A stretch of DNA of 64,000 nucleotides from Niameybacter massiliensis (lineage in GTDB: Bacteria > Bacillota > Clostridia > Lachnospirales > Cellulosilyticaceae), in NCBI RefSeq assembly GCF_001282685.1, contig NZ_LN875034.1:179533-243532 (forward strand). Reading direction: 5' to 3'. Positions within the stretch are counted from its first letter, which is position 1, and every line of letters begins with the position of its first letter. The notes beneath the pieces were generated by a model. That model saw nothing but the letters and a program-made list of their open reading frames with translations. It had not been told where the DNA came from and made no database searches. Shown here one piece after another: positions 49,088-64,000 of this stretch. A program made the position numbers and the translations under genes.

Positions 49088-49223
49088 AGAAATGCTCCTT
49101 TGGATAAAATTCCTGTTCTAATTATACTATATTCTTAGAGAAAGAACAAAATTAGACTTAAAATTTTAAGAGATTACAAGGATGTAATATATGGCATTGA
49201 TATTTATACAAAAATCATTAAAT

Positions 49224-49246
49224 TTCTTATATAGGTATGCTATAAT
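49224..49246 (+). promoter_or_regulatory. Promoter of the rmlA polysaccharide operon
   Basis: Extended -10 TATGCTATAAT ending at 49246, with a weak TTAAAT near 49218-49223, 17 bp upstream of TATAAT. It lies 30 bp before the rmlA start. Confidence 0.45.
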
Positions 49247-49276
49247 TAAAATAATACTCATAAAAGGAGAAAGAAT

Positions 49277-50158
49277 ATGAAGGGAATTATATTAGCAGGT
49301 GGAACGGGCACAAGACTTTATCCAATTACTAAAGCAATTTCTAAGCAAATGATTCCAATATATGATAAACCTATGATTTATTATCCTCTTTCTACGCTTA
49401 TGTTAGCTGACATTAGAGACATTCTTATTATTTCCACTCCAAGAGATTTACCAATGTATCAAGAATTATTAGGAGACGGAAGTAGTTTAGGCATGTCTTT
49501 TAATTATGCAGTTCAAGAACAGCCTAAAGGAATTGGAGAGGCTTTTATTATTGCAGAACAATTTATAGGAGAAGATAGAGTAGCACTAGTATTAGGAGAT
49601 AATATTTTCTATGGTACAGGGTTTACAGGATTGCTGAAGAAAGCTTCACAGATAGAAGATGGAAGTATGATATTTGGGTATTATGTAAATAGTCCAGAGG
49701 CATATGGTGTAGTAGAGTTTGATAAGGAAGGTAATGCCATTTCTATAGAAGAAAAACCAAAGTATCCTAAATCACCTTATGCAGTGACGGGCTTATACTT
49801 TTATGACAATGATGTAGTGGAAAAAGCAAAACAACTTACATTATCACCAAGAGGTGAATTAGAGATTACAGATATTAATGCTATGTATTTACAAGAAAAA
49901 AGATTAAAAGTAGAGGTTTTTGGACGGGGAATGGCTTGGTTAGATACGGGAACCTGCGAAGGTTTAACAGAAGCAGCAAGCTTCGTTCAAGCAGTGCAAA
50001 AAAGGCAAGGCTTGTATATCGCATGTATAGAAGAAATTGCATATAGAAATAAATGGATTAATAAAGAACAACTTAAGGTGCTAATTGAACCTATGAAGAA
50101 AACAGAGTATGGTCAATACTTAGAGGATATAATTAAAAAGGAAAATCTTAAGGAGTAA
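49277..50158 (+). CDS. rmlA: Glucose-1-phosphate thymidylyltransferase
   Basis: 293 aa. [20 protein letters not shown] is the nucleotide loop. Other RmlA marks are [49 protein letters not shown] and the C-terminal GMAWLDTGT. It makes dTDP-glucose. rmlB starts 3 bp after its stop. RmlC and RmlD are not in the window, so the final sugar is not certain to be rhamnose. Confidence 0.97.
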
Positions 50159-50161
50159 CTC

Positions 50162-51199
50162 ATGAAGAATATATTAGTTACAGGTGGAGCAGGGTTTATT
50201 GGAAGTAATTTTATAAGGCATATGATACAACAATATGATTATAATATTATTAACTTTGACCTGCTTACATATGCAGGGAATCTAGACAACTTAAAGGATA
50301 TAGAAGGTAATTCAAAATATTATTTCATAAAAGGGGATATACGAGACCGACAACAGGTGAAAAGTATTTTTGAAACATATGATATTGATACGGTAGTTAA
50401 TTTTGCAGCTGAATCACATGTAGATAGAAGTATAGAGGAACCCGATGTATTTCTCAGTACTAATGTGCAAGGAACCCAAGTATTATTAGATACAGCAAAA
50501 CAGTATTGGAAGGTCACCCCAGAGGACAAGTACTGCAGAGAATTTAAAGTAGGTGTAAAGTACTTACAAGTTTCTACAGATGAAGTTTATGGTTCATTAG
50601 GGAAAGATGGATTATTTACTGAGACAAGTCCATTAGCTCCTAATAGTCCTTATTCTGCATCTAAAACAAGTGCAGATTTATTTGTAAGAGCATATCATGA
50701 AACATTTGGCCTACCAGTAAATATAACCAGGTGCTCGAATAACTATGGTCCTTATCAATTTCCTGAGAAATTAATTCCTCTGATGATCAATAACTGTCTT
50801 AATCATAAAGTACTCCCTGTATACGGCGATGGTATGCAAATTAGAGATTGGTTACATGTAGAAGATCATTGTGAGGCAATAGCTACAGTTTTGCATAAAG
50901 GTCAGGATGGTGAAATCTACAATATAGGTGGCAATAATGAAAAAGCTAATATTGAGATAGTTAGGCTCATTATTAATAAATTAGGTAAGTCACAAGAACT
51001 TATTCAATATGTTAAAGATAGACCAGGACATGATAGAAGATATGCTATTGATAATACTAAAATTAGTACTGAATTAGGTTGGAAGCCAAAATATACATTT
51101 GAAGAAGGAATGATTCAGACAATTGAATGGTATCTAGAGCATAAAGAATGGATTAATGATATTATTAGTGGTGATTATCAAACATATTACAAGTTGTAG
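50162..51199 (+). CDS. rmlB: dTDP-glucose 4,6-dehydratase
   Basis: 345 aa. Rossmann loop GGAGFIGSNFIRHM, then the extended SDR marks STDEVYGSLG and YSASKTSADLFVRAYHETFG, and CSNNYGPYQFPEKLIP. It converts dTDP-glucose to dTDP-4-keto-6-deoxyglucose. Directly downstream of rmlA with a good AAGGAG site. The product could go to rhamnose, a quinovose-type sugar or an amino sugar, depending on enzymes outside the window. Confidence 0.97.
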   Translation: MKNILVTGGAGFIGSNFIRHMIQQYDYNIINFDLLTYAGNLDNLKDIEGNSKYYFIKGDIRDRQQVKSIFETYDIDTVVNFAAESHVDRSIEEPDVFLSTNVQGTQVLLDTAKQYWKVTPEDKYCREFKVGVKYLQVSTDEVYGSLGKDGLFTETSPLAPNSPYSASKTSADLFVRAYHETFGLPVNITRCSNNYGPYQFPEKLIPLMINNCLNHKVLPVYGDGMQIRDWLHVEDHCEAIATVLHKGQDGEIYNIGGNNEKANIEIVRLIINKLGKSQELIQYVKDRPGHDRRYAIDNTKISTELGWKPKYTFEEGMIQTIEWYLEHKEWINDIISGDYQTYYKL

Positions 51200-51233
51200 T
51201 ACCTAAAGAGATAAAAGAAAGAGAAGGAACAGT

Positions 51234-52007
51234 ATGAAACCAATAAAGGAAATTTACAAATATAAGGAGTTACTAGGTGAACTCGTTAAGCGAGATATCA
51301 AAGTAAAATATAGAAGGTCTCTATTAGGGGTTATATGGAGTGTTTTAAATCCTCTTTTATTTATGGTAGTAATTACAATTGTTTTCTCAACTATATTTAA
51401 AAGTGATATTGAAAATTTCCCTATATATTTCTTGTGTGGACAAATTGTCTTTGCATTCTTTTCAGAGGCAACATCAATGGCTCAAACATCTATCTTAGGA
51501 AATGGTGCACTAATTAAAAAAGTATATATTCCTAAATATATATTCCCAGTATCTAAAGTATGTTCAGGAATAGTAAATGTAGGATTTTCTCTTATAGCTA
51601 TTATTATAATGATGGTTATTTTACGCTATATACCACCAGTAACAGCATTACTCTTTTTTGTGCCATTAATTTACGCATTTTTATATGCAATAGGAGTAAG
51701 TATGCTTATTTCAGCACTGGCAGTATTTTTCCGAGATACAGTGCATCTATATAGTATATTATTAACTGTATTAAGCTATTTTTCAGCTTTATTCTATCCA
51801 GTAGAGATTATTCCTGCTCAATATCAAGGACTTATTAATTTTAATCCGATATATGTATTTATAAATTATTTTAGACAATTAGTATTAGTAGGTAAGGTTC
51901 CAAGTTTAGAATATAACGTATTATGTATAGCTCACTGTGTTTTAATGCTTATTGTAGGGTATTATACATTTAAACGAAGTGAAAATAAATTTATTTTATA
52001 TATTTAG
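51234..52007 (+). CDS. Polysaccharide ABC exporter permease (Wzm/TagG-like)
   Basis: 257 aa with six membrane segments. The N-terminal amphipathic part LLGELVKRDIKVKYRRSLLG is the family signature for ABC-2 permeases that export lipid-linked polysaccharide or teichoic acid. C-terminal marks are YFSALFYPVEIIPAQYQGL and NPIYVFINYFRQLVLVGKVP. It works with the ATPase 14 bp downstream. It follows rmlB by 34 bp. Confidence 0.93.
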   Translation: MKPIKEIYKYKELLGELVKRDIKVKYRRSLLGVIWSVLNPLLFMVVITIVFSTIFKSDIENFPIYFLCGQIVFAFFSEATSMAQTSILGNGALIKKVYIPKYIFPVSKVCSGIVNVGFSLIAIIIMMVILRYIPPVTALLFFVPLIYAFLYAIGVSMLISALAVFFRDTVHLYSILLTVLSYFSALFYPVEIIPAQYQGLINFNPIYVFINYFRQLVLVGKVPSLEYNVLCIAHCVLMLIVGYYTFKRSENKFILYI

Positions 52008-52021
52008 AAGAGGTATTATAT

Positions 52022-52756
52022 ATGGAAGCGTTAGCTGTAAAAGTAGAAGATGTGCATATAAGATTTAATCTAAGTAAAGAACAAGTTAATGGAATAAAAG
52101 AGTACTTTGTTAAATTAGTAAAAAGAGAACTTCTCTTTGAAGAATTCTGGGCATTAAAAGGAATTAGTTTAGAAATAAAAAAAGGAGAAGTATTTGGTAT
52201 TGTAGGTTTAAATGGTGCAGGGAAAAGTACTTTATTAAAGGTAATTGCAGGTGTACTGGAGCCTACAAAAGGGAAAGTAAAAATTAATGGTACAATAGCT
52301 CCGCTTATTGAATTAGGGGCAGGTTTTGATATGGAGCTTACGGCAAGGGAAAATATTTATTTAAATGGTGCAATTTTAGGATATAGTAGGAAATTTTTAG
52401 ATGATAGATTTGATGAGATAATAGATTTTGCAGAGATTCATGAGTTTTTAGATGTACCTTTAAAAAACTATTCATCAGGAATGGTAGCTAGAATTGCATT
52501 TGCAATAGCAACAATAGTAGAGCCTGAAATTCTTATTGTTGATGAAATTTTATCAGTAGGAGATTTTAAATTCCAAGAAAAATGTCAGAATCGTATAAGA
52601 GAAATGTTAGAAAATAATGTAACGGTTATAATGGTTTCACATTCAATAGATCAAATTAGAAGTATGTGTAATCGTGCTATATTAATCGAAAAAGGTAAAA
52701 ATATTTTAATAGGGTCAGCAGATGAAGTATGTGATTTATATATTCAAAAAAGTTAG
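52022..52756 (+). CDS. Polysaccharide ABC exporter ATPase (Wzt/TagH-like)
   Basis: 244 aa. Walker A GLNGAGKST (residues 62-70), signature YSSGMVARIAF and Walker B ILIVDEILSVGD. The family mark GTIAPLIELGAGF follows Walker A. It lacks the C-terminal carbohydrate-binding domain found in some Wzt proteins, so a chain-cap signal is unlikely to be read by this subunit. It pairs with the permease just upstream. Confidence 0.94.
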   Translation: MEALAVKVEDVHIRFNLSKEQVNGIKEYFVKLVKRELLFEEFWALKGISLEIKKGEVFGIVGLNGAGKSTLLKVIAGVLEPTKGKVKINGTIAPLIELGAGFDMELTARENIYLNGAILGYSRKFLDDRFDEIIDFAEIHEFLDVPLKNYSSGMVARIAFAIATIVEPEILIVDEILSVGDFKFQEKCQNRIREMLENNVTVIMVSHSIDQIRSMCNRAILIEKGKNILIGSADEVCDLYIQKS

Positions 52757-52765
52757 GGGGAAACT

Positions 52766-53947
52766 ATGACATTTCAAACATTGTGTAAAAGATTATGGAA
52801 GAAAAGTTGTAGAATTATAAATCGATTAAAGCAGTTCACTAGGGGGATACAGTATAAAAATGAAATAGAAATACTTTTGGAAGAGATAGAGGAAAAGCAG
52901 TTACCAGTTATAATCTTTCTTGATATAGTAGATTGGGATATTCCATTATTTCAAAGACCTCAACATATGGCTAAATGTTTAGCTAAAGAAGGATATACCT
53001 ATTTATTCTTTACTACGAATACCTATGATGATATAAATAGTTTTAAACAACAGGATAATAACTTATACATTATTAATAACGTTTTTAAGAAAAAGATAAT
53101 AGATACAATTCAATTAAGACATAAATATATACAGTTATATTCTACAGATATGAAGACTACTGTTGCAGATATAGAAAAGTACAAGAAATTAGGTTATAAA
53201 TTAATTTATGAATATATTGATGAGATTGCGCCGGAACTTTATGGAAGTGATATTCCGCAAATAGCTCTAAAAAAGCATACTTATATTTTAAAGGATGAAG
53301 AAATCTTTATGGTATGTACGGCTAGAAAGCTTTATCAAGAAACCATTGCTATTAGAGAATTAAATAGAGTACAACTTATAACAAATGGTGTAGAATATAA
53401 TCATTTTAGTGAACAAAGAGATAAAGTTGTGAAAACTAAAGAACAAAGAGTAATTGGTTATTTCGGAGCATTTGCGAGTTGGTTTGACTATGACTTGGTA
53501 AAATATGTAGCACAGCAATGTAAAGAATATAAATTCTTATTTATAGGATGGGAGTATGATAATTCACTTAGTAAAAGTGATATAAGCGATTTAGAAAATG
53601 TGACAATATTAGGCCCTATAAATTATACAGAGTTACCTATATATGCAGCAGAATTTGATGTATCTATTATTCCTTTTAAGGTTAATGAAATTACAGAGTC
53701 TACATCACCTATAAAATTATTTGAATATATGGCACTAGGAAGACCTGTTGTAACAACAGCAATGCCAGAATGCATGCTATATGAACCCGTTCTTATTGCA
53801 AGGGATAGAGAAGAGTTTGTGCTTAAGTTAAGGGAAGCTATTAGGTTACAAGATAATGCAAAATATCTTAGTAAGCTAAATGAATGTGCTTTAGAGAATA
53901 CATGGCAAGCAAAAGCCAAGGATCTTATTAAACTAATCCAGAGTTGA
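52766..53947 (+). CDS. Glycosyltransferase (GT-B fold, GT1/GT4-like)
   Basis: 393 aa. N-terminal domain from about 45 (VIIFLDIVDWDIPLFQRPQH). The C-terminal half has the GT-B pattern VIGYFGAFASWFDYDLVKYV, VTILGPINYTELPIYAAEFD, and SPIKLFEYMALGRPVVTTAM with the E of the EX7E region. It resembles the central domain of the next gene (ELPAYLQHSDYAILPFE, SPLKIFEYICMNKVV), so the two probably share an origin. Donor and acceptor sugars unknown. Fourth gene of the rmlA operon. Confidence 0.88.
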   Translation: MTFQTLCKRLWKKSCRIINRLKQFTRGIQYKNEIEILLEEIEEKQLPVIIFLDIVDWDIPLFQRPQHMAKCLAKEGYTYLFFTTNTYDDINSFKQQDNNLYIINNVFKKKIIDTIQLRHKYIQLYSTDMKTTVADIEKYKKLGYKLIYEYIDEIAPELYGSDIPQIALKKHTYILKDEEIFMVCTARKLYQETIAIRELNRVQLITNGVEYNHFSEQRDKVVKTKEQRVIGYFGAFASWFDYDLVKYVAQQCKEYKFLFIGWEYDNSLSKSDISDLENVTILGPINYTELPIYAAEFDVSIIPFKVNEITESTSPIKLFEYMALGRPVVTTAMPECMLYEPVLIARDREEFVLKLREAIRLQDNAKYLSKLNECALENTWQAKAKDLIKLIQS

Positions 53948-53960
53948 AAGGAAGTAAAAC

Positions 53961-56900
53961 ATGAAAGAGATTAATAGTAAAGAGTATTGGAGTGAAAGAT
54001 TTAAAACCAAGGATTGGGATGCTAAAGGTGGAGAAGCTCAAAGCCAATTTTTTTATAAACTCGCTTTAAAAATGCTACCAAAGTGGTTAGAGAAAGAAAT
54101 TATGCAAGAAGAATATAGTATTTGTGATATAGGATGTGCTGAAGGAGATGGGACAGCAATACTATATAATAAATTTTTCAATTCAAAAGTGTATGGAGTA
54201 GATTTTGCAGCAGATGCTATAGAATTAGCAGAGAAAAAATATACAGGAATAAGCTTTAATACAGGTGATGTTAATGACTTTATATGTGAACAAGATATAC
54301 TATTTTCATCTAATACATTAGAGCACTTTAGAAATCCATGGAAATTAGTAAAAGGCCTTATGAATGGGGGACAAAAGTATACTATTTTATTGTTACCTCT
54401 TAACGAAATGAATTTAATAGACGAACATTTTTCTCAATTTGAACTAGAGTCTATACCCTTAAAAATACAAAGTGGCACATTAGTATATTATGATATAGTA
54501 GACTGTACAAATTTACCAAATACAGCATGGACAGGAGAACAAATTTTACTCGTATATGCGCATGCTGAGGAAGTCTCTCTTTATCAATATACATTAGATG
54601 GAATGATAAATAATACGAAATTAGAAGCAGAACAATATTTGATGCGAGAACTAGAGGATAAAATTAGTTTACTAGAAAGTAATAATGAACAGCTTATTAT
54701 AGATATTGCTGACATGAAGCAGCTAGAAGAAGAATTAAAAAATAAATTACATATACAAGGGGAAGAGCACCAAAGTATAGTAAATCAAATTCTTCAAAAG
54801 ACTGATTTAATGGAAGAAGAGAAAGAAGAATTAAGAACAGCAGTTATTAAACTAGAAAAAGAACTAGAAGGTTTACAAAAAAATTATGATAAAGTTCAGG
54901 AAGCAAAAAAACATGAAGAACAACTTATAGAAGAATATAAAGAGAAGTTAGATATATTACAAATGAGTAAAGAAAGTGAAGAAGAAATAGAAGACTTACA
55001 AAAGCAAAATAATGCACTTAATGTAACTATTACTAATCTTTCTCAACAAGTACAAGAATATAATGATATGCTTTATACGGCAAATGTTCAAAATGAGCGA
55101 CTTAATTCAGCGTTATGGAAAATACACTCTTCAACTTTCTGGAAAGTAGCAACTAAATACTATCATGTACGAGATAATACACCATTAAAGTATCCATTTA
55201 AAGCGTTAAGAAAAGTAAAAAGAATGATTACACATACTACACCAGAATCAACTACTATGGATACAGTAGTAGGACAAGCTCCTATTATATTTGAAAATAA
55301 AATAGTTCATGAGAAAGACAGAAGCGTGTTTATTTTTGCTGGTGTAGCATACTACGATATTGGTGGCGGACAAAGAAGTGCACAACTTGCAAAGACTTTC
55401 TATAAGATGGGATATGATGTGCATTACGTTTATGCTTATGATTCAAGTGAAAAAGATAAGGTAACGATTGATTTACCAGTAAGAGCACATATCCATATAG
55501 ATGAATTAACTACTGAATATGTAAAGAAAAATATAGGGAAAGATACATTCTTTATTTTTGAAATTCCTCATGATAAGTTTTATCCATATTTAAATCAAGC
55601 AAATTTATTAGGGATAAAAACAGTATATGAGCACATTGATAACTGGGAGACCTCGTTAGGAGGAGATTGGTTCCATTTAGATATTTATAAAGATTTCTTA
55701 AAACAAGCAGATGTACTTATAGCAACAGCGGCACTTTTACAGGAAAAACTTCAAGAAACAGTAAGAAAAGAATGGCCAGAACTTAATAAACAAGTATACT
55801 ATATGGCAAATGCTGTAGACTGTGAACTATTTGAAAGTTTACTTACACATAAAAAACCTAAAGATCTCATACAAGGAGAAAAAACATTGCTCTATTATGG
55901 ATCACTATGGGGTGAATGGTTTGACTGGAATCTTATCTTTGGAGTAGCAAAAGCCTTCCCATCCTATGCAATTAATTTAATTGGTGAGTATGAGGGGATA
56001 GTAGTGAAGCTGAAAAATATTCCTGAGAATGTACATTTTTTAGGGCTTAAAAAACAATTAGAATTACCAGCATATCTTCAGCATAGTGATTATGCTATAT
56101 TACCATTCGAGACATGTGAGATTGGAAAGTATGTATCACCTTTAAAAATATTTGAATATATTTGTATGAATAAAGTAGTGCTTTCTACTAAGTTGCCAGA
56201 TGTAGAAAATTATCCAAATGTTTATTATGGAGATACACCAGAAGAGTGGATAGACATACTTAAAACAAAGCCAGAACCAATCCAAAGTAATGCTGAATTT
56301 ATTAATAAACATAATTGGTATAATCGTTGTAATAGTATTGTAGAAGCATTAGATATGACAAAAACATACAAAGAGAAAATATCAGTTATTATTTTGAATC
56401 GTAATAATAAGAAAGTAATCTTTAGATGTATAGAAAGTTTAATAGTTAATAATAAATACGGATATGAAATTATTGTTGTAGATAATGATAGCTCAGATGG
56501 TTCCTATGAGCAACTTCAAGAAGAATATAGTGATAAAGTTAAAGTTATTCTTAATGATAAAAATGGATGTTCTTCAGGACGTAATTTAGGTGTGAAAAAT
56601 GCTACTGGAGACTACCTAGTGTTCTTAGATAGTGATCAATGGGTATGGGGAAGTAGTTGGCTAGATAAAGGGCTTGATATTCTACAAAAAGATAGAAATA
56701 TTGGAGCAGTAGGTTGGGCAGCAGGTTGGTTTAGTGAAGGTAGTGTAGGTGGGCCAATATGTGATTACTTACCAAACAGAGGAGTAGAAAAAAATGAGTT
56801 ATACCGTATGGATATTGCTTATTTAGGTACAGGAGGGATGATTCTCCAAAAGAAACTTTATGAAATGATTAAAGGATTTGATGAATACTACGATCCAACA

Positions 56901-57113
56901 TGTTATGAGGATACAGATTTTGCACTATCTATTAAACACCTAGGATTTGATCTTGCATATTGCCCATATATGACTATTTTCCATCTGCCACATCAAACAA
57001 CAAATTCAGGAAGTAAAACACATCAAGAACTGATGACACGAAATGGTGAATACTTTAAAAATAAATGGCAAGAAAGAAATGAACAATTTTTGAAAGTATA
57101 TTTAGATAACTAA
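53961..57113 (+). CDS. Four-part fusion: methyltransferase, coiled coil, GT-B glycosyltransferase, GT2 glycosyltransferase
   Basis: 1050 aa. Residues about 1-215 are a class I SAM methyltransferase (YSICDIGCAEGDGTAIL; VYGVDFAADAIELAEKKY). About 218-395 is a long Glu/Lys/Gln coiled coil. About 450-800 is a GT-B domain (FAGVAYYDIGGGQRSAQLAK; YYGSLWGEWFDWNLIFGVAK; SPLKIFEYICMNK). About 805-1050 is a GT2 domain (ISVIILNRNNKKVIFRCIES; IIVVDNDSSDGS; FLDSDQWVW; ED in CYEDTDFALS). Such a protein could cap or length-control a chain by methylation while adding two sugars, in the manner of coiled-coil molecular rulers like WbdD. That role is inferred. Confidence 0.88.
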   Translation: MKEINSKEYWSERFKTKDWDAKGGEAQSQFFYKLALKMLPKWLEKEIMQEEYSICDIGCAEGDGTAILYNKFFNSKVYGVDFAADAIELAEKKYTGISFNTGDVNDFICEQDILFSSNTLEHFRNPWKLVKGLMNGGQKYTILLLPLNEMNLIDEHFSQFELESIPLKIQSGTLVYYDIVDCTNLPNTAWTGEQILLVYAHAEEVSLYQYTLDGMINNTKLEAEQYLMRELEDKISLLESNNEQLIIDIADMKQLEEELKNKLHIQGEEHQSIVNQILQKTDLMEEEKEELRTAVIKLEKELEGLQKNYDKVQEAKKHEEQLIEEYKEKLDILQMSKESEEEIEDLQKQNNALNVTITNLSQQVQEYNDMLYTANVQNERLNSALWKIHSSTFWKVATKYYHVRDNTPLKYPFKALRKVKRMITHTTPESTTMDTVVGQAPIIFENKIVHEKDRSVFIFAGVAYYDIGGGQRSAQLAKTFYKMGYDVHYVYAYDSSEKDKVTIDLPVRAHIHIDELTTEYVKKNIGKDTFFIFEIPHDKFYPYLNQANLLGIKTVYEHIDNWETSLGGDWFHLDIYKDFLKQADVLIATAALLQEKLQETVRKEWPELNKQVYYMANAVDCELFESLLTHKKPKDLIQGEKTLLYYGSLWGEWFDWNLIFGVAKAFPSYAINLIGEYEGIVVKLKNIPENVHFLGLKKQLELPAYLQHSDYAILPFETCEIGKYVSPLKIFEYICMNKVVLSTKLPDVENYPNVYYGDTPEEWIDILKTKPEPIQSNAEFINKHNWYNRCNSIVEALDMTKTYKEKISVIILNRNNKKVIFRCIESLIVNNKYGYEIIVVDNDSSDGSYEQLQEEYSDKVKVILNDKNGCSSGRNLGVKNATGDYLVFLDSDQWVWGSSWLDKGLDILQKDRNIGAVGWAAGWFSEGSVGGPICDYLPNRGVEKNELYRMDIAYLGTGGMILQKKLYEMIKGFDEYYDPTCYEDTDFALSIKHLGFDLAYCPYMTIFHLPHQTTNSGSKTHQELMTRNGEYFKNKWQERNEQFLKVYLDN

Positions 57114-57139
57114 AAACTAGTATAAAAATAAGGTGAAGC

Positions 57140-57520
57140 ATGAAAAAATTAAAAAATCTAATAATGGTATTAATATGTCTTGTATGCGTATTTCTTATTG
57201 TATTTATTACAATGAAAAACGTAAATCCTATAATTGTTGAACGAGTAGATCCAATAGAAGTTAAGGCAGGAGAGGATTTCTATATATTTGAAGGTAAACC
57301 TACTATATCAGTATATGGTAAAGGATTTAAGGACGGGGATATTATTTTTATTAATAATCATCCTCAAAATAGTGCGGTAGGAGATTCGGGATGGATGACA
57401 TGTTTCGTTGATAGACAAGAGTATGCTGTTTCGGGAAAAATGGAGGTACAAGTAAAACGTATAAATGAAAAAGGAAGAGTCATAAAAAAATCTCAAAAGC
57501 TATATATAGTAGTAAAATAA
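57140..57520 (+). CDS. Small anchored extracellular protein, IPT/TIG-like
   Basis: 126 aa. One N-terminal signal-anchor helix (LIMVLICLVCVFLIVFIT, about 8-25). The exterior part of about 90 aa is an all-beta fold resembling an IPT/TIG immunoglobulin-like domain (ISVYGKGFKDGDIIFINNHP; a C-terminal KLYIVVK strand). Function unknown. It is the last gene before a hairpin and a gap of about 140 bp. It may bind glycan or the assembly machinery at the cell surface. Confidence 0.65.
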   Translation: MKKLKNLIMVLICLVCVFLIVFITMKNVNPIIVERVDPIEVKAGEDFYIFEGKPTISVYGKGFKDGDIIFINNHPQNSAVGDSGWMTCFVDRQEYAVSGKMEVQVKRINEKGRVIKKSQKLYIVVK

Positions 57521-57565
57521 GTATTTAAAATATAAGCTAATAAGTTTAGAAGATATTACAAAAGA

Positions 57566-57597
57566 TTAGGCTGATGGCATATAGGTCATCAGCCTAA
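57566..57597 (+). terminator. Hairpin after the IPT/TIG-like gene
   Basis: TTAGGCTGATG (57566-57576) faces CATCAGCCTAA (57587-57597). The stem is strong but is not followed by a T run on the plus strand, so termination may be partial. It marks a possible break in the polysaccharide operon; TATACT at about 57642 could restart transcription. Confidence 0.5.
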
Positions 57598-57663
57598 CTC
57601 ATTAAAACTATATTAATAAATTATCAGGAATTAGATAATATGTATACTAATTGAGGAGTACTT

Positions 57664-59208
57664 ATGAAAGAAATGACAGATGAATACATGTATAAACAAA
57701 TTAAGGAATTAGTAAACAAAATTTCAGTAGTAGAAAAAAAAGCTTTTAGTGCAACTATTATATTAGGATGTTTAGCTCACATGTTTATATTTATAAATGT
57801 ACTTCCTAACTGGGATAGTATGTATAATTTTGATAAACATTCTACATGGTTAAGTATGGGTAGGTGGTTTTTAGGACCAACAATGAATTTATCATCACCT
57901 TATGATATACCTTGGGTTATAGGAATATTATCGTTGATATTTTTAGGCGTGACAGCGATGATCTTAGTTAGGATATTAGAAATTAAAAGCGTAATTAATG
58001 CAATCCTTATAGGAGGTATACTAGTTACATTTCCAGCAGTAACAAGTACATTTTCATATTTATTTTTGTCAGATGCTTATATGTTGGGATTACTATTAGC
58101 AAGTATAGCAATTTTAATTACTAAAAAGTATAACAAAGGATTTTGGGTAGGAGGTATTGCTTTAGCATTATCCCTAGGAATCTACCAAGCAAACTTATCA
58201 TTTGCAGTATTATTGGCGATATTTGTAATAATAAATGAAACGCTAAAAGGTACTTCTAGTGGGAAAGAGAACATTGGATATGGATTAAGGTTTGTAGGAA
58301 CAAGTGTTATAGGAGTAGCGTTATATTATATAATACTTTATATGTTATTAAGTGCTACAGGCCAAACATTGGTTGATTATCAAGGAGCAAATGAAGGATT
58401 ATGTATTAATCTAGATGCAGTATTAAAAATTAAAAATGAATTTATAAATAGTTTTACAATGATAACAGGTGGAGATAAACCTATAATTACGTATCTTATA
58501 ATAGGAGTATTTATTTATCTTTTCATAGCTATTATATATCACTTAATACAACAAAAATGTTATAAAGATTTTTGGAAGATATGTATAGTTATCGCTAGTA
58601 TTCTGATAGCTCCATTTATTACGGGATATGCATACTTCATTTCACAGAATACTATTTACCATATGGTGATGAGAATGGGATGGGTTATATTTTTTATAGG
58701 AGCACTTGCTATAGGTGAAGGAATTGTTAATAAATTAAAAAGTAAATTACTTAGGTATACATTATTTTATGTACCGATAATAATGATAGGGATAATTATT
58801 TATAGTAATATACTTGTAGCTAATATATCATATGTAAACATGCATCAACGTTATGAAAAGGAGTATGCATTTACAATAAGATTATTAGAGGAATTACAAG
58901 GGAATAGAAATTATACTGAAGAAACACCGGTTGTATTTGTAGGAAATAGAGTAAATAACCAAGCAGAAAATATATATAATAAGGAAATAAAATATATTAC
59001 AGGAGCAGATGGAAATACATTCTTACCTACAGATTTTCATATAAAACAATTTATGAAGTATTATTTAGGAATAGGCTTACAGAATCCTAGCGAACAACAA
59101 TTAGAAAGTATTAATGATAATGAAATAGTAAAAAATATGTCAGTGTTTCCTCTGAGTGGATGTAGTGAATTAGTTAATGGTGTACTTGTTATAAAAATGG
59201 GAAATTAG
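57664..59208 (+). CDS. GtrII-like membrane glucosyltransferase-domain protein
   Basis: 514 aa with about ten to eleven membrane helices. A short cytoplasmic N-terminus is followed by AFSATIILGCLAHMFIFINV. The early external loop LPNWDSMYNFDKHSTWLSMGRWFLGP and the stretch SDAYMLGLLLASIAIL fit the GtrII family. These proteins move a sugar from a polyprenyl phosphate to a surface glycan outside the membrane. The C-terminal exterior part is about 100 aa. It stands 32 bp before the UbiA-type gene, hinting at use of the lipid-linked sugar made by the next genes. Confidence 0.82.
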   Translation: MKEMTDEYMYKQIKELVNKISVVEKKAFSATIILGCLAHMFIFINVLPNWDSMYNFDKHSTWLSMGRWFLGPTMNLSSPYDIPWVIGILSLIFLGVTAMILVRILEIKSVINAILIGGILVTFPAVTSTFSYLFLSDAYMLGLLLASIAILITKKYNKGFWVGGIALALSLGIYQANLSFAVLLAIFVIINETLKGTSSGKENIGYGLRFVGTSVIGVALYYIILYMLLSATGQTLVDYQGANEGLCINLDAVLKIKNEFINSFTMITGGDKPIITYLIIGVFIYLFIAIIYHLIQQKCYKDFWKICIVIASILIAPFITGYAYFISQNTIYHMVMRMGWVIFFIGALAIGEGIVNKLKSKLLRYTLFYVPIIMIGIIIYSNILVANISYVNMHQRYEKEYAFTIRLLEELQGNRNYTEETPVVFVGNRVNNQAENIYNKEIKYITGADGNTFLPTDFHIKQFMKYYLGIGLQNPSEQQLESINDNEIVKNMSVFPLSGCSELVNGVLVIKMGN

Positions 59209-59240
59209 TATAAAGATTATAAACAAGGAGAGAGACTATA

Positions 59241-60098
59241 ATGGAAATAATTAAATTAATGCGACCAAAACAATGGATTAAAAATCTATTTGTTTTTGCA
59301 GCACTTATATTTTCAATGAAATTTTTAAGTCCTTTTCATATAGGACAAGCAATGTTATGTTTTGTACTTTTTTGTATGATATCATCAAGTATATATATTC
59401 TTAATGATATTGTTGATGTAGAAAAAGATAGACTTCATCCTAAGAAGAAAAATAGACCTTTAGCTAAAGGAACAGTAAGTATTAAAGCAGCAGGAGGAGT
59501 AAGTATTATATTAATGATAAGTTCACTATTAGCAGGATTTTTATTTAATCCACTAGTAGGAACTGTGATTACTTTATATTTGATTAATAATTTAATTTAT
59601 TCATTTAAAATTAAACATATTGTTATTATGGATATAATTTCTATTGCTATAGGATTTATCTTAAGAGTAGTAGCAGGTGCATTTGCAATTGATGTAGGGA
59701 TTTCGGCATGGATCTTAGTTTGTACATTCTTTATTTCATTATTCCTTGGAATAGGAAAGCGAAGAGGAGAAATTTTAGCATTAGAGCATAATGCTCATGA
59801 CCATAGAGCAAATCTAAAAGATTATACAGAAGAATTTGTAAATCAAATAACCTCAATTGTTGTAGCATGTACAATTATGTCATACTCTCTTTATACATTT
59901 ACAGCATACGAACATATGTATATGATGTTGACTATCCCATTTGTAGTATATGGTATATTTAGATACCTTAACTTAATATATACGCAAGATGAAGGAGGAA
60001 ACCCAACAGAATTAGTTTTAACAGATAAATTAATTATCATAGATGTAGTACTTTGGGGATTTGTAAGCAGTGCTATATTATATTTAACCAATATATAG
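59241..60098 (+). CDS. UbiA-family polyprenyl-phosphate phosphoribosyltransferase (DPPR synthase-like)
   Basis: 285 aa with about eight helices. It starts IIKLMRPKQWIKNLFVFAAL. The Asp-rich motif NDIVDVEKDRLHPKKKNRPL (Asn55-Leu74) matches the decaprenyl-phosphate 5-phosphoribose synthase branch of UbiA (mycobacterial Rv3806c), not the quinone branch. The family joins PRPP to polyprenyl phosphate. It is followed 17 bp later by a HAD phosphatase, as expected for removing the 5-phosphate. DprE1/DprE2 epimerase genes are not present in the window, so the product could stay ribose. Confidence 0.88.
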   Translation: MEIIKLMRPKQWIKNLFVFAALIFSMKFLSPFHIGQAMLCFVLFCMISSSIYILNDIVDVEKDRLHPKKKNRPLAKGTVSIKAAGGVSIILMISSLLAGFLFNPLVGTVITLYLINNLIYSFKIKHIVIMDIISIAIGFILRVVAGAFAIDVGISAWILVCTFFISLFLGIGKRRGEILALEHNAHDHRANLKDYTEEFVNQITSIVVACTIMSYSLYTFTAYEHMYMMLTIPFVVYGIFRYLNLIYTQDEGGNPTELVLTDKLIIIDVVLWGFVSSAILYLTNI

Positions 60099-60114
60099 GA
60101 AGCGAGTTAAAAAA

Positions 60115-60747
60115 ATGAGTAAGAGATCAATAGCATTATTCGATATTGATGAAACAATTATTTCTAATGACTCTATGATATCCTTAATTAGGTATTCTTT
60201 TAAACATCATCCTAAGACACGAAAAGCGACTATAAAATTTGTAGGACAAGGAATAAAATATGTTTTTAAGTTAATAGATACTAAGCAAGTAAAGCAATCT
60301 GCATTTGAATGTATTAACTATTTAACAGAAAAAGATTTATATAAATTTTATAAACAACAAGTGTATTCATATATATATGAAGATGCATTTAAAGAAATAA
60401 AAAGGCTTAAAAAGGAAGGATACATAGTATTACTAATTACAGCATCACCTGAATGTTATATGAAATATTTCTTAGAAGTTGAGGAAATAGATGATGTAAT
60501 AGGAACAAGGTTTGAAAAAGTTGGTAGTAGATTTAGTAATAAAATAATAGGAGAAAACTGTAAGGGAGTGGAGAAGGTAAATAGAATTCATGAGTGGCTA
60601 ACAAGTAATAATGTTGAAATTGATTATGAAAATTCATATGCATTTTCAGACTCTATGAGTGATCTACCTATGTTTAAATTAGTAAAGAATAGCTATATTA
60701 TTAATAATAAAAAAGCAGACTATAATAATAAATTATATTGGAAGTAG
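60115..60747 (+). CDS. HAD-IB family phosphatase
   Basis: 210 aa. Motif I ALFDIDETIIS (Asp10, Asp12), motif II LLITASPE and motif IV AFSDSMSDLPMF give a full set of HAD residues of the SerB-like IB type. It has no signal peptide. Its place between the UbiA-type synthase and two SMR-like proteins suggests it removes the 5-phosphate from polyprenyl-phosphoribose. Phosphoserine phosphatase activity is possible but less likely here. Confidence 0.88.
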   Translation: MSKRSIALFDIDETIISNDSMISLIRYSFKHHPKTRKATIKFVGQGIKYVFKLIDTKQVKQSAFECINYLTEKDLYKFYKQQVYSYIYEDAFKEIKRLKKEGYIVLLITASPECYMKYFLEVEEIDDVIGTRFEKVGSRFSNKIIGENCKGVEKVNRIHEWLTSNNVEIDYENSYAFSDSMSDLPMFKLVKNSYIINNKKADYNNKLYWK

Positions 60748-60760
60748 TTGAGGAGTATAG

Positions 60761-61108
60761 ATGGAGAATAAAAAAGAATCAACTAAAGCGATAAAAGGTA
60801 TAATATTAATGATCTTAGCTTCTGTACTTACAGCTTTTGGGCAATTGAGTTGGAAGTTTTTTCAGACAGAAGGGCTTATATTTCTTTTTATAGGTTTTTT
60901 ATTGTATGGATTAGGGGCAATTGTTATGATGTTGGCTTTTAAAAATGGAGAATTATCTGTTTTGTACCCTTTAATGTGTACTGGTTATATTATTGCTTTA
61001 ATAAATGGAAAGACATTTTTAAATGAAAGCGTGAGTTTAACACAATATATAGGCATTACAGTGATTATGATAGGGATTATTTTTATGGGGATAGGGGGTA
61101 AGAAATGA
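60761..61108 (+). CDS. SMR/EamA-like small membrane transporter, subunit 1
   Basis: 115 aa with four helices (GIILMILASVLTAFGQLSWK, FIGFLLYGLGAIVMMLAF, LSVLYPLMCTGYIIALING, YIGITVIMIGIIFMGIGG). It resembles ArnE-type lipid-linked sugar flippase subunits in size and layout. Its stop overlaps the next gene's start by 4 bp, so the two proteins are probably made together as a heterodimer. Confidence 0.82.
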   Translation: MENKKESTKAIKGIILMILASVLTAFGQLSWKFFQTEGLIFLFIGFLLYGLGAIVMMLAFKNGELSVLYPLMCTGYIIALINGKTFLNESVSLTQYIGITVIMIGIIFMGIGGKK

Positions 61109-61434
61109 ATTATATTATCTTACTACTTATGACCTTATTGGGTGCATTAGGTGGCTTTTATTTGAAAATATCAACAGGAAAAGTAACTAATTTTATAGGC
61201 CTAATAGGCTGTAAAGAATTTTACATGGGCGGTTTCTTTTATTGTGTAGGTGCATTACTAAATATATATCTATTAAGATTTATCCCCTATAGTATAGTGA
61301 TGCCATTAAATGCATTAACATATATATGGGCATTTATACTTGGCGTTACAGTATTAAAAGAAAAGATTAATAAAGAGAAGGTTATAAGTGTTATTTTTAT
61401 AATTATAGGAGTTATTTTTCTAAGTATGAAATAA
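61105..61434 (+). CDS. SMR/EamA-like small membrane transporter, subunit 2
   Basis: 109 aa with four helices (IILLLMTLLGALGGFYLKIS; MGGFFYCVGALLNIYLLRFI; IVMPLNALTYIWAFILGVTV; VISVIFIIIGVIFLSM). It is the likely partner of the preceding protein, as ArnF is of ArnE. Paired SMR proteins of this type turn polyprenyl-phosphate sugars over in the membrane. Start overlaps the previous stop (ATGA). Confidence 0.82.
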   Translation: MNYIILLLMTLLGALGGFYLKISTGKVTNFIGLIGCKEFYMGGFFYCVGALLNIYLLRFIPYSIVMPLNALTYIWAFILGVTVLKEKINKEKVISVIFIIIGVIFLSMK

Positions 61435-61455
61435 TACTATTTAAAGGTAAAAATA

Positions 61456-62553
61456 ATGAAAACAGTATTAATCATTCGTTCGCTAGATATCTCATCAGAC
61501 TCTCGTGTACAAAGGTATGAAAAATATTTTGAGAAATATCAAGTATCTTATACTGTATTAGGATGGGACAGGGAAAATAAAAACTTAAAAAGAAAAAGTA
61601 CCGATTATTGTACGATCCAAGCGGGTTATAACTTAGGAACTGGCGGAATTAAGTATAGAATAAAGTGGAATATATATGTGTTAAAATACCTACTTAAAAA
61701 TAAGAAAAATTATGACATTATTCATGCATGTGATTTTGATACGATCTTACCAGCACTAGTAATGAAATTATTTGGTAAAACAGTTGTTTTTGATATATTT
61801 GATTGGTTTAGTGATGAAGTAAAGACAGGGAAATGGTTTATAGATTATCCCATTAACTTTATGGAAAAGTTAGCAACTAAGTTAGCGGATATGACAATTC
61901 TATGTGAAGAAGAAAGAATAGAACAAATACAAACTATTCCAAGAAAATATATGATAATACCTAATATCCCTACAGTAGATTTGACGGGTATTACATGTAT
62001 ACCTAATGTTAAAGGGACGCCTATAACTATCGCTTATGTAGGTGGTTTTTATCCAGATAGAGGGTTGATAGAACTATTAGAAGTCATATCAACAATGCCA
62101 ACTATCCAATTAAAAATTGCTGGATTTGGAAATGTAGAAATTGAAGATAAAGCTAGAGAATATGCAGAACTACATTCTAATATAGAGTATTATGGGAAAG
62201 TAGAATATAATAAAGCTATAGAAATTATGCAGTCTGCAGACTTATTATATGCTATGTATTATACAATAAATAGAAATAACATCTATGCAGCACCCAATAA
62301 ATTTTATGAAGCAATATTTTTAAATAAGCCTATTATTACGACACAGAAAACCTTAGTAGGGAAAAAGGTACAAAAGCATGAAAGTGGCTATGTAATAGAA
62401 GAAGGTAGAGATGCTCTTGAAAAATTCTTGCAGAAATTATCTCTAGAGGATATACAGAGCAAAAAGAATACATTAATAGAATATAGTAGCTTATATAAAG
62501 ATACAGCTAAAGAAAGTATGGAACAATATATTACTTATATAAAAAATAGATAA
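61456..62553 (+). CDS. GT-B glycosyltransferase (GT4-like)
   Basis: 365 aa. The N-terminal domain opens with VLIIRSLDISSDSRVQRYEK, common in GT4 proteins of polysaccharide loci. Other marks are HACDFDTILPALVMKLFGK, IAYVGGFYPDRGLIELLEVI, and NKFYEAIFLNKPIITT. Substrates unknown. It starts 21 bp after the SMR-like pair and 17 bp before wecB. Confidence 0.87.
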   Translation: MKTVLIIRSLDISSDSRVQRYEKYFEKYQVSYTVLGWDRENKNLKRKSTDYCTIQAGYNLGTGGIKYRIKWNIYVLKYLLKNKKNYDIIHACDFDTILPALVMKLFGKTVVFDIFDWFSDEVKTGKWFIDYPINFMEKLATKLADMTILCEEERIEQIQTIPRKYMIIPNIPTVDLTGITCIPNVKGTPITIAYVGGFYPDRGLIELLEVISTMPTIQLKIAGFGNVEIEDKAREYAELHSNIEYYGKVEYNKAIEIMQSADLLYAMYYTINRNNIYAAPNKFYEAIFLNKPIITTQKTLVGKKVQKHESGYVIEEGRDALEKFLQKLSLEDIQSKKNTLIEYSSLYKDTAKESMEQYITYIKNR

Positions 62554-62570
62554 TACAAAGGAGGAACAGG

Positions 62571-63722
62571 ATGAAGAAATCAATTAAAGTTATGAGTGTA
62601 TTTGGAACACGCCCAGAAGCAGTAAAAATGGCACCGCTTGTAAAAGAGCTTGAACAAACAGAGGGAATTCAAAGTATTGTTTGTGTAACAGCACAACATA
62701 GAGAAATGCTTGATCAAGTATTAGATATATTTGGATTAAAGCCAGATTATGATTTAGATATTATGAAGCAACGTCAAACTTTAACAGGAATTACGACAAG
62801 AGTATTAGAAGGGATGGAAGAGGTACTAGAAAAAGCACAGCCAGACCTTGTTTTAGTACATGGTGATACAAGCACATCTTTTGTAGCGGCACTAGCAGCA
62901 TTTTATAAGCAGATTCCAGTTGGTCATGTTGAGGCAGGCCTTCGCACATACAATATCTATGAACCGTTCCCAGAAGAAATGAATAGAAAGCTTACAGGTT
63001 CATTAGCGAATATTCATTTTTCACCAACACCTGTATCAAAAGACAACTTACTTAAAGAAAATGTTTGTAGTGATGATATATTTGTAACAGGTAATACAGT
63101 TATTGATGCGCTTAAGACAACGATTGCAGAGGGCTATACTTTTACAGTAGAAGAACTTAATAAAATTGATTACAATAATAAACGTGTTATTACAATGACA
63201 GCTCACAGAAGAGAAAATTTAGGGGAACCTTTAGAAAATATTTGTAATGCTGTAGCTCATATTGTAAAAGAATTTGAAGATGTAGAAGTAGTGTATGCAG
63301 TTCATAAAAATCCAGCTGTAGGTGAAGTGGCTCATAGAATCTTAGGAAATATGGATAGAGTACATCTTGTAGATCCACTAGATATTAAAGATATGCATAA
63401 TTTAATGAAACGCTCTTATTTAGTGTTAACAGATTCGGGTGGATTACAGGAAGAAGTTCCTTCATTAGGTAAGCCAGTTCTTGTATTACGTAATGTAACA
63501 GAAAGACCAGAAGGGGTTGAAGCAGGAACACTTAAGTTAGCAGGTATTGAAGAAGAAACAATTTATGAAATGACAAAAGAGCTTTTAACAAATAAAGAGA
63601 TTTATGGAGAAATGGCACAAGCTAGAAATCCATTTGGTGATGGACATGCTTCGAGAAGAATTGCACAAGCAATCCTTTATAAATTTGGTTTAAGAGAAGA
63701 TAAACCAGAGCAATACATTTAA
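62571..63722 (+). CDS. wecB: UDP-N-acetylglucosamine 2-epimerase (non-hydrolysing)
   Basis: 383 aa. VFGTRPEAVKMAPLVKEL, TAQHREMLDQVL, VHGDTSTSFVAALAAFY, GHVEAGLRTYNIYEPFPEE and SGGLQEEVPSLGKPVLVLR are the family signatures. It makes UDP-ManNAc, used in secondary wall polymers, teichoic-type glycans or enterobacterial common antigen-type chains. Codon use is a little more biased than its neighbours. An AAGGAGG site precedes it. A long hairpin follows. Confidence 0.96.
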   Translation: MKKSIKVMSVFGTRPEAVKMAPLVKELEQTEGIQSIVCVTAQHREMLDQVLDIFGLKPDYDLDIMKQRQTLTGITTRVLEGMEEVLEKAQPDLVLVHGDTSTSFVAALAAFYKQIPVGHVEAGLRTYNIYEPFPEEMNRKLTGSLANIHFSPTPVSKDNLLKENVCSDDIFVTGNTVIDALKTTIAEGYTFTVEELNKIDYNNKRVITMTAHRRENLGEPLENICNAVAHIVKEFEDVEVVYAVHKNPAVGEVAHRILGNMDRVHLVDPLDIKDMHNLMKRSYLVLTDSGGLQEEVPSLGKPVLVLRNVTERPEGVEAGTLKLAGIEEETIYEMTKELLTNKEIYGEMAQARNPFGDGHASRRIAQAILYKFGLREDKPEQYI

Positions 63723-63730
63723 TACAACAA

Positions 63731-63801
63731 AAAAAGTTAAAGTTTATTTTTTATTAAATGATCTTAAATATATTTAAGACTTAATGAAAAATAAACTTTT
63801 T
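63731..63801 (+). terminator. A/T-rich hairpin terminator after wecB
   Basis: AAAGTTTATTTTTTATTAA (63739-63757) faces TTAATGAAAAATAAACTTTT (63781-63800), with an inner CTTAAA/TTTAAG pair and a closing T run. Confidence 0.75.
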
Positions 63802-63834
63802 TATGTAGAATAAATATAGATAAGGAAAAAAGTT

Positions 63835-64000
63835 TTGAGGAAAATAGATAAAAGAAGAATAAAGCGTTTTTTAAAAGGAAATTATTTTAAATCTTTAATT
63901 CATATTATATGGATTGCATTATTAACCGTTGTAGCAGGAGAAATGCTAATTAGGCAGGATTTTAATCAAGTACTAGACTGGATAAATGATTATACAACAG
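63835..64000 (+). CDS. Probable LTA synthase/sulfatase-family membrane protein, N-terminal part (cut by window edge)
   Basis: My translation from TTG 63835 runs open for 55 codons to the window end. AAGGAA lies about 9 bp upstream. It reads RKIDKRRIKRFLKGNYF, then a membrane helix (SLIHIIWIALLTVVAGEMLI) and DFNQVLDWINDY. This opening resembles the LTA-synthase-like proteins of clostridia, but the catalytic part is outside the window. Confidence 0.55.
   Translation, partial: MRKIDKRRIKRFLKGNYFKSLIHIIWIALLTVVAGEMLIRQDFNQVLDWINDYTT

Follow-up and report, generated by a model that had tools for sequence, protein, structure and literature searches.

A probable extracytoplasmic pentosylation module in Niameybacter massiliensis, with a GtrII-family glycosyltransferase beside a UbiA/HAD donor module

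Which lipid-linked sugar feeds a GtrII-family glycosyltransferase when the genes behind it encode a UbiA-fold enzyme and a phosphatase? The question is raised by 64,000 nucleotides of Niameybacter massiliensis (assembly GCF_001282685.1, contig NZ_LN875034.1, positions 179,533 to 243,532 of the forward strand), a stretch referred to here as the window. Five adjacent open reading frames (ORFs) at positions 57664-61434, all on the plus strand and with intergenic gaps of 32, 16, 13, and -4 bases, encode a GtrII-family membrane glycosyltransferase proposed to be the terminal pentosyltransferase (57664..59208, 514 amino acids; PF14264, 160.7 bits, cut-off 30), a predicted UbiA-fold polyprenyl-phosphate phosphoribosyltransferase of the DPPR synthase or PPPRS type (59241..60098, 285 amino acids), a HAD-IB phosphatase proposed to remove the 5-phosphate from lipid-linked phosphoribose (60115..60747, 210 amino acids), and two EamA/SMR-type proteins of four helices (60761..61108, 115 amino acids, EamA 28.4 bits, predicted N-in; 61105..61434, 109 amino acids, EamA 35.3 bits, predicted N-out; cut-off 28.2 bits for both), the genes of which overlap by 4 bases. 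The original prediction, which was made from the letters alone, had described these five adjacent genes and their families, and the ORFs and Pfam/NCBIfam scores bear it out.

We consider it probable that the five genes form an extracytoplasmic pentosylation module within a rhamnose-polysaccharide cluster, in which GtrII would be fed by undecaprenyl-phosphate ribofuranose as the result of a donor swap. In the proposed route, UbiA would move phosphoribose from phosphoribosyl pyrophosphate (PRPP) onto undecaprenyl phosphate at the cytoplasmic face, the HAD enzyme would strip the 5-phosphate to yield undecaprenyl-phosphate ribofuranose, the two EamA/SMR proteins would carry this lipid to the outer face as an antiparallel pair, and GtrII would put the ribose on a rhamnose-containing polymer after its export by an ABC transporter. 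GtrII itself would have descended from transferases fed by GtrB-made lipid-hexoses, the donor module having been swapped for UbiA and HAD. The chemistry of each step, the movement across the membrane, the acceptor, and the choice of ribose are all inferred from protein families, contact residues, neighbourhoods, and genome content, and these lines of evidence support the make-dephosphorylate-flip-transfer order of events that was first suggested for the locus.

The first step depends on the UbiA protein. It scored 101.5 bits against PF01040 (cut-off 34.2) and passed two of the three NCBIfam models named decaprenyl-phosphate phosphoribosyltransferase (NF008977, 268.6 bits, cut-off 234; NF008978, 234.3 bits, cut-off 207), staying below the cut-off of the third (NF008976, 175.1 vs 474). 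The closest solved structure was that of Rv3806c (8j8j, E 9.4e-41), and the two solved entries that matched at E 0.001 were both decaprenyl-phosphate phosphoribosyltransferases. The NDxxDxxxDxxHPxKxxRP motif, which had been pointed out earlier, is indeed present (N55, D56, D59, D63, H66, K69, and R72). The Rv3806c structure paper names the residues in contact with PRPP, magnesium, or decaprenyl phosphate (PMC10994848), and 10 of 13 such substrate-contact residues are identical in the window UbiA (R8, K14, Y52, N55, D59, K69, R72, Y120, K125, and K173), the three departures being Q135 to N, Y157 to F, and K208 to A. These sites were compared across 138 distinct related UbiAs, taken from 154 loci (the best 80 of 155 matches, 73 stretches of further genomes, and the window). 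Asparagine occupied the Q135 site in 110 and phenylalanine the Y157 site in 130 of them; as this is the common state among relatives, the two substitutions give no sign of lost function. The K208 site was variable, with lysine in 69 of the 138.

Two other UbiA proteins of the N. massiliensis genome, which are distant and could be aligned only roughly, keep 4 and 3 of the 13 contact residues; a fourth UbiA match (L004, 20.4 bits) was left out, since it falls in a SecF-type-looking gene. The family score and the contact residues support the assignment of the window UbiA to the polyprenyl-phosphate phosphoribosyltransferase type, and phosphoribosyltransferases are treated as a separate UbiA group, with no counter-case, in the covered text of PMC9235831. 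That the protein is instead an ordinary aromatic or lipid prenyltransferase, placed here by coincidence, is very improbable. The fold and the Asp motif are common to UbiA families and family names are no proof of function, but the family score, the contact residues, and the control UbiAs disfavour such an enzyme, as do the HAD and GT-C-sized genes that recur beside its relatives.

These neighbours begin with the phosphatase. The HAD gene starts 16 bases downstream of UbiA and encodes a separate protein, which scored 136.5 bits against the HAD-IB model TIGR01490 (cut-off 98.3) and the model of which resembles phosphoserine-phosphatase-type HADs. Residues D10, D12, S111, K154, D179, and D183, which we take to be the HAD motif residues, were invariant in five aligned sequences (the window and four relatives), so the earlier description of a HAD-IB phosphatase with all motifs holds. 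With a profile grown from the window's own HAD, 20 HAD genes were found in same-strand runs at most six genes from the 138 distinct UbiAs (window included), and 16 of the 20 lay exactly at +1; a chance neighbourhood was rejected on these counts. Large multi-helix proteins of GT-C size likewise concentrated at -1 (37) and +1 (28) and never occurred more than 7 times at any other position. The HAD phosphatase is thus predicted to belong with UbiA. In Citrobacter, a HAD domain fused to a like UbiA removes the 5-phosphate and yields lipid-phosphate ribose, a product demonstrated by mass spectrometry and nuclear magnetic resonance (NMR) (PMC11127046).

The last step was assigned to GtrII. Its AlphaFold2 model (mean predicted local distance difference test score, pLDDT, 81.7) gave no Foldseek match in the PDB with E under 0.001. 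A second-look structural alignment gave Z scores of 8.2-14.1 over the first 45 rows and then 4.1; these rows comprised protein mannosyltransferases (PMTs), oligosaccharyltransferases (OSTs), ArnT, AftA, AftB, AftD, EmbB, and the U subunit of glycosylphosphatidylinositol (GPI) transamidase. GtrII thus models as GT-C transferase-like, a likeness that rests on the second-look aligner, which carries a warning about helical proteins. Residues D51, G66, and R67 were invariant across 20 GtrII sequences, and D51 is located just after the first long helix (22-44), where the catalytic Asp has been proposed to lie in several GT-C structures (PMC11127046); by analogy, D51 is the candidate catalytic Asp. 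GtrII was found in 38 of the 295 genomes of the order at E 1e-10, including that of N. massiliensis, which has one PF14264 protein, encoded 32 bases upstream of UbiA.

What feeds GtrII elsewhere was assessed within the same order on 19 GtrII genes from genomes other than that of N. massiliensis, which lie in 18 stretches and are mostly the highest-scoring matches (the weak match L263, missed by the profile, was not counted). A full-length GtrB-type lipid-hexose synthase was encoded within 5 kb on the same strand in 12 of the 19, with nine of the 12 within 54 bases of GtrII; three of these 12 GtrB neighbours (from L250, L254, and L247) are themselves the rows of the GtrB profile. Since a greedy reading of non-overlapping frames can hide genes under long antisense frames, the count was repeated on all frames. 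In the six nearest relatives of the window GtrII (28.9-34.2% identity), GtrB was directly adjacent, and in the window UbiA and HAD occupy the slot that GtrB holds in these relatives.

The N. massiliensis genome was also searched as a whole. A one-sequence search found no full-length GtrB in it, only a single fragmentary match (E 8.7e-4), and the same query returned best E-values from 8.0e-70 to 4.5e-172 in six comparison genomes; as three of the six share the genus of the query, the fairest comparison is with G001 and G022, which are of the same family as N. massiliensis. With a three-row GtrB profile, matches in the N. massiliensis genome were confined to N-terminal GT2 fragments (41 bits or less), and G001 had three full-length matches (197-318 bits); G001 is the independent control, because the 555.6-bit match in G022 is one of the profile's own rows. 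GtrA (PF04138) had no match in the genome, and control matches were obtained in 7 of 14 genomes. The likeliest reading of these results is a donor-module swap in front of GtrII, from GtrB-made lipid-hexose to lipid-pentose made by UbiA and HAD.

It is conceivable, if unlikely, that UbiA, HAD, and the SMR pair make and flip a lipid-linked ribose for another transferase or polymer, and that GtrII uses a hexose from an unrecognised synthase. The GtrB neighbours of its relatives (12 of 19) point in this direction, as does the finding that, among the 138 UbiA loci, that of the window alone has GtrII at a distance of at most 5 kb (GtrB is this close in 6 of 138), and so does another locus (L261) in which GtrII stands beside an SMR-like pair with neither UbiA nor GtrB within 5 kb. 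On the other hand, the genome searches found neither a full-length GtrB nor a GtrA, the sole PF14264 protein of the genome sits directly before UbiA, and two loci of related organization, in Caloramator proteoclasticus (L007) and Thermobrachium celere (L008), carry another GT-C at the same position. We therefore favour GtrII as the transferase served by the UbiA/HAD donor module.

The relatives that bear on this point fall into several arrangements. In L007 and L008, a GT-C gene, UbiA, HAD, and two SMR genes stand alone between opposite-strand genes; in Clostridium sp. (L024), the same five kinds of genes are rearranged; and in C. tarantellae (L006), the SMR pair is found upstream of UbiA, ~4.7 kb away. 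In L007, L008, and L024, the GT-C gene belongs to PMT_2, not GtrII, and in L006 an 11-helix protein without a family stands beside UbiA and is preceded by a PMT_2 protein. Of the five genes that relatives were expected to keep together, UbiA-HAD-SMR-SMR recurs (L007 and L008, rearranged in L024, split in L006), but GtrII does not.

The EamA/SMR proteins are the candidate flippase. They had been likened to ArnE/ArnF-type SMR pairs; two overlapping EamA/SMR-like proteins are present, but against the ArnE/ArnF models they reached 18.2-30.5 bits, far below the cut-offs of 92 and 99, so that the term denotes a resemblance and not membership. In antiparallel SMR heterodimers, one partner is N-in and the other N-out. 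The first protein has 6 Lys and Arg residues in its N-terminal, L2, and C-terminal loops vs 2 in L1 and L3, and the second has 1 vs 5; such an opposite charge bias, which predicts one partner to be N-in and the other N-out, was observed in 4 of 5 pairs. We propose that the two proteins together form a flippase heterodimer, with the opposite topology predicted from the charge pattern. Small membrane proteins of other kinds were found near UbiA elsewhere, namely GtrA on a Lactococcus plasmid and a PF06695 protein in L182. The flippases of UbiA-type pentose systems (EamA/SMR pair, GtrA, PF06695, MATE, and Rv3789) would thus seem to be exchangeable. In L261 (5555-7811), mentioned above, GtrII is followed by two overlapping small proteins, one of which is weakly EamA-like (21.6 bits, below the cut-off).

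Which pentose would be transferred was approached through the epimerases. DprE1 appeared to be missing, as no ALO domain (PF04030) matched in the genome, and 3 of 14 control genomes, Corynebacterium glutamicum included, gave a match; an arabinose route via DprE1 was rejected on this basis. An alternative FAD oxidase, the NF005560 family that stands beside UbiA in L063, was rejected as well, since its 18 weak matches in the genome were all below the cut-off and the best reached 47 bits. The claim that a missing epimerase favours ribose was made for the locus and, as far as DprE1 is concerned, now holds genome-wide, the search having covered PF04030. Ribose is the favoured sugar on this sequence evidence. 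Epimerisation of the lipid-linked ribose to arabinofuranose or xylofuranose before flipping is improbable: such a step has been described for mycobacteria (DprE1/DprE2) and for Citrobacter O2 (PMC11127046), and epimerase-like genes follow UbiA in other loci, but neither the ALO domain nor an NF005560 match over the cut-off occurs in this genome, and the epimerase-like genes seen in the cluster are attributable to rhamnose (rmlB, rmlD, and rmlC) and to a UDP-GlcNAc 2-epimerase. A different gene pair was observed in 8 of the 138 loci (L009, L012, L143, L150, L185, L193, L196, and L197), where a radical SAM protein with a CxxxCxxC motif is encoded at +1 of UbiA and, in 7 of these 8, a short-chain dehydrogenase/epimerase-like protein at +2. 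This pair could be an oxygen-independent lipid-pentose epimerase of anaerobes that replaces DprE1/DprE2.

Several observations weigh against the pentosylation reading. Of the 138 loci, that of the window alone has GtrII near a UbiA of this kind, and for 7 of the 19 further GtrII genes no GtrB lies inside 5 kb, so that GtrII need not be encoded beside the enzyme that makes its donor. A search with one sequence and a three-row profile could miss an unusual lipid-hexose synthase, and completeness of the genome is 98%. As the 138 UbiAs were chosen as relatives of the window UbiA, the residues they share are partly a product of this choice; the control UbiAs are only distantly related and roughly aligned. 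The EamA/SMR proteins miss the ArnE/ArnF cut-offs, and in the L006 pair the charge pattern of the first protein is ambiguous (4 vs 5). Finally, the epimerase searches covered DprE1 and NF005560, with enzymes of the DprE2 or short-chain dehydrogenase type outside their reach.

The five genes are part of a plus-strand gene run at 49277-63722 that indicates the probable acceptor. It begins with rmlA- and rmlB-like genes for dTDP-rhamnose (49277..51199, recognized by eye from their translations) and continues with the permease and then the ATPase of an ABC-type polysaccharide exporter (51234..52756; the permease by eye, the ATPase of 244 amino acids by PF00005, 84.1 bits), a probable backbone glycosyltransferase named by eye from its translation (52766..53947), and a 1050-amino-acid protein with a methyltransferase domain (PF13847 at 51-132) and a GT2 domain (PF00535 at 808-927; 53961..57113). 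The middle part of this protein had no Pfam match, and by composition its residues ~200-350 (rich in E, K, Q, and L and poor in P or G) would be a helix-prone linker, a layout that recalls chain terminators with a coiled-coil ruler. The ATPase, with only 244 amino acids, leaves little room for a C-terminal glycan-binding domain. A 126-amino-acid protein that looks secreted by eye (57140..57520; no Pfam family at E 0.01) immediately precedes GtrII.

Downstream of the SMR pair, the plus strand encodes a group-1 glycosyltransferase and the UDP-GlcNAc 2-epimerase (61456..63722; PF00534, 40.7 bits, and PF02350, 405.8 bits), and these are followed by a membrane protein of the sulfatase sequence family with ~5 helices, which runs from ~63835 past the window end (368-2170 in the continuation, L244) and is possibly a glycerol-phosphate transferase. 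A sulfatase-family membrane protein also follows UbiA and HAD in C. tarantellae (L006, 9893-11938). The continuation further encodes rmlD and rmlC family proteins and a GT2, with two SLH-domain proteins ~3.5 kb beyond them. The rhamnose genes, ABC exporter, and glycosyltransferases around the module point to a rhamnose polymer exported by the ABC transporter as the most likely acceptor. A terminator scan observed 0 terminator-like sites in 49000-64000 vs 3.2 expected by chance, which fits a single transcript without demonstrating one, and promoter-like sites were no commoner than in shuffled sequence. The G+C content of the five-gene stretch is 27.5% vs 34.7% over the window's first 49 kb; such a departure is common in exchanged surface-polysaccharide genes.

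The UbiA family is sporadic in distribution: at E 1e-40 it was present in 2 of 24 same-family genomes, and at E 1e-50 in 26 of 295 from the order and 48 of 391 from the class, each count including N. massiliensis. The nearest UbiAs (57-58%) came from Clostridium, Caloramator, and Thermobrachium, and the best from its own order, among the matches listed, reached 46-49%, which suggests a horizontal gain. A FastTree phylogeny of 139 UbiAs grouped the window with L006, L036, L007, and L008 (support 90). Three changes on this tree are needed for the five paired-SMR loci, so it does not show a single origin of the pair. UbiA matches were also found in phages (1 record) and plasmids (102 records), always below 60% identity. 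On Lactococcus cremoris plasmid pF27D (L268, 4587-7706), a 462-amino-acid hypothetical protein, a UbiA annotated as decaprenyl-phosphate phosphoribosyltransferase, a HAD-IB phosphatase, and GtrA are encoded in a row within a polysaccharide region, and a pentose module thus seems to travel on a dairy plasmid.

Other loci of the family vary more widely. Caloramator sp. mosi_1 (L036, 8114-9163) has shortened UbiA and HAD reading frames, apparently a decaying copy, and in the archaeon Methanomicrobium mobile (L082, 7959-9435) a HAD gene directly follows a UbiA of this family. A recurring Clostridium locus contains an RNase Y gene, an 86-amino-acid gene, UbiA, a multi-helix protein of ~430 amino acids, a single SMR-like protein, and an aminotransferase; the families were taken from L030 alone, in which the 441-amino-acid multi-helix protein had no Pfam family, and the locus was recognized by gene sizes in L014, L015, L034, L037, L039, L041, L043, L054, and further loci of Clostridium. 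The arrangement suggests a core lipid-pentose function.

Taken as an extracytoplasmic pentosylation module, the five genes would add the rhamnose surface polymer of a Clostridia species to the targets of lipid-linked pentose decoration. Neither this transferase family nor a paired flippase is described for such systems in the literature examined, and the five genes would be a clean case of donor-module exchange before one transferase family. They also offer a testable route for placing alpha-ribose onto clostridial surface glycans, such as the S-layer glycan of Clostridioides difficile Ox247, the ribose donor of which is not described in the published account as far as covered (PMC6254364). 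We regard as evenly balanced the broader view that GtrII is not tied to hexoses, one member having passed from a GtrB-made lipid-hexose to a lipid-pentose made by UbiA and HAD, that the antiparallel EamA/SMR pair is a flippase dedicated to lipid-pentose, that donor, flippase, and transferase are thus freely exchangeable modules when clostridial surface glycans are decorated, and that clostridial alpha-ribose is added outside the cell from this lipid.

How does the module compare with known systems? Three-component pentofuranose systems have been described in Citrobacter youngae O1/O2 (ORF15, PPPRS+PRP; ORF14, MATE; ORF12, GT136), and further candidates were mentioned in Gram-positive bacteria (PMC11127046, 2024); because this general pathway is already published, the Niameybacter system is a variant and not the first of its kind. 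The Citrobacter systems combine a UbiA-type phosphoribosyltransferase, a HAD phosphatase, a flippase, and a GT-C transferase, and their ribose version has no epimerase; the Niameybacter genes would provide the same set, with a candidate flippase and a GT-C-like transferase, and in both cases the cluster includes an ABC exporter for polysaccharide. They differ in that UbiA and HAD are fused in Citrobacter and separate in Niameybacter, in that the flippase there is a MATE protein, whereas an EamA/SMR pair is found among the neighbouring small membrane proteins here, in that the transferase there is GT136 and here is assigned by family to PF14264 (GtrII), and in that the host here is a Clostridia species. 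New with respect to the literature examined are the association of a UbiA/HAD donor module with GtrII and paired EamA/SMR proteins and the genome-wide evidence for a donor swap; among the literature matches listed, from which subscription journals were mostly out of reach, no publication joined GtrII with a UbiA phosphoribosyltransferase.

The mycobacterial decaprenyl-phosphate arabinose pathway (Rv3806c, Rv3807c, DprE1/DprE2, and Rv3789) shares the UbiA enzyme and its PRPP-contact residues. In contrast to that pathway, Niameybacter has no DprE1 match, its small membrane proteins are paired, and its transferases are others; the proposed mycobacterial flippase, Rv3789, is a single protein called SMR-family, and the phosphatase Rv3807c belongs to another family than HAD (PMC11127046). 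In C. difficile SLCT-11 (Ox247), the S-layer glycan is rhamnose-rich, ABC-exported, and bears alpha-linked ribose side chains, which are lost in an orf4 mutant, and the authors took orf4 as the ribosyltransferase (PMC6254364). This glycan resembles the proposed acceptor as a rhamnose-rich, ABC-exported polymer of Clostridia, a likeness by description, and by analogy it is an independent sign of ribose decoration in this class. In streptococci and lactococci, ABC-exported rhamnans are modified outside the membrane, where GT-C enzymes draw on undecaprenyl-phosphate (C55-P) sugars. These rhamnans thus share the exported rhamnose polymer and the GT-C decoration, but their side chains are GlcNAc, glucose, or oligosaccharides on C55-P and not pentoses (PMC10821137). 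The GtrA-GtrB-Gtr hexosylation systems of Shigella and Salmonella share with the window the GtrII family and the logic of a lipid-phosphate donor, a flippase, and a GT-C, whereas Niameybacter has UbiA and HAD with an SMR pair in place of GtrB and GtrA.

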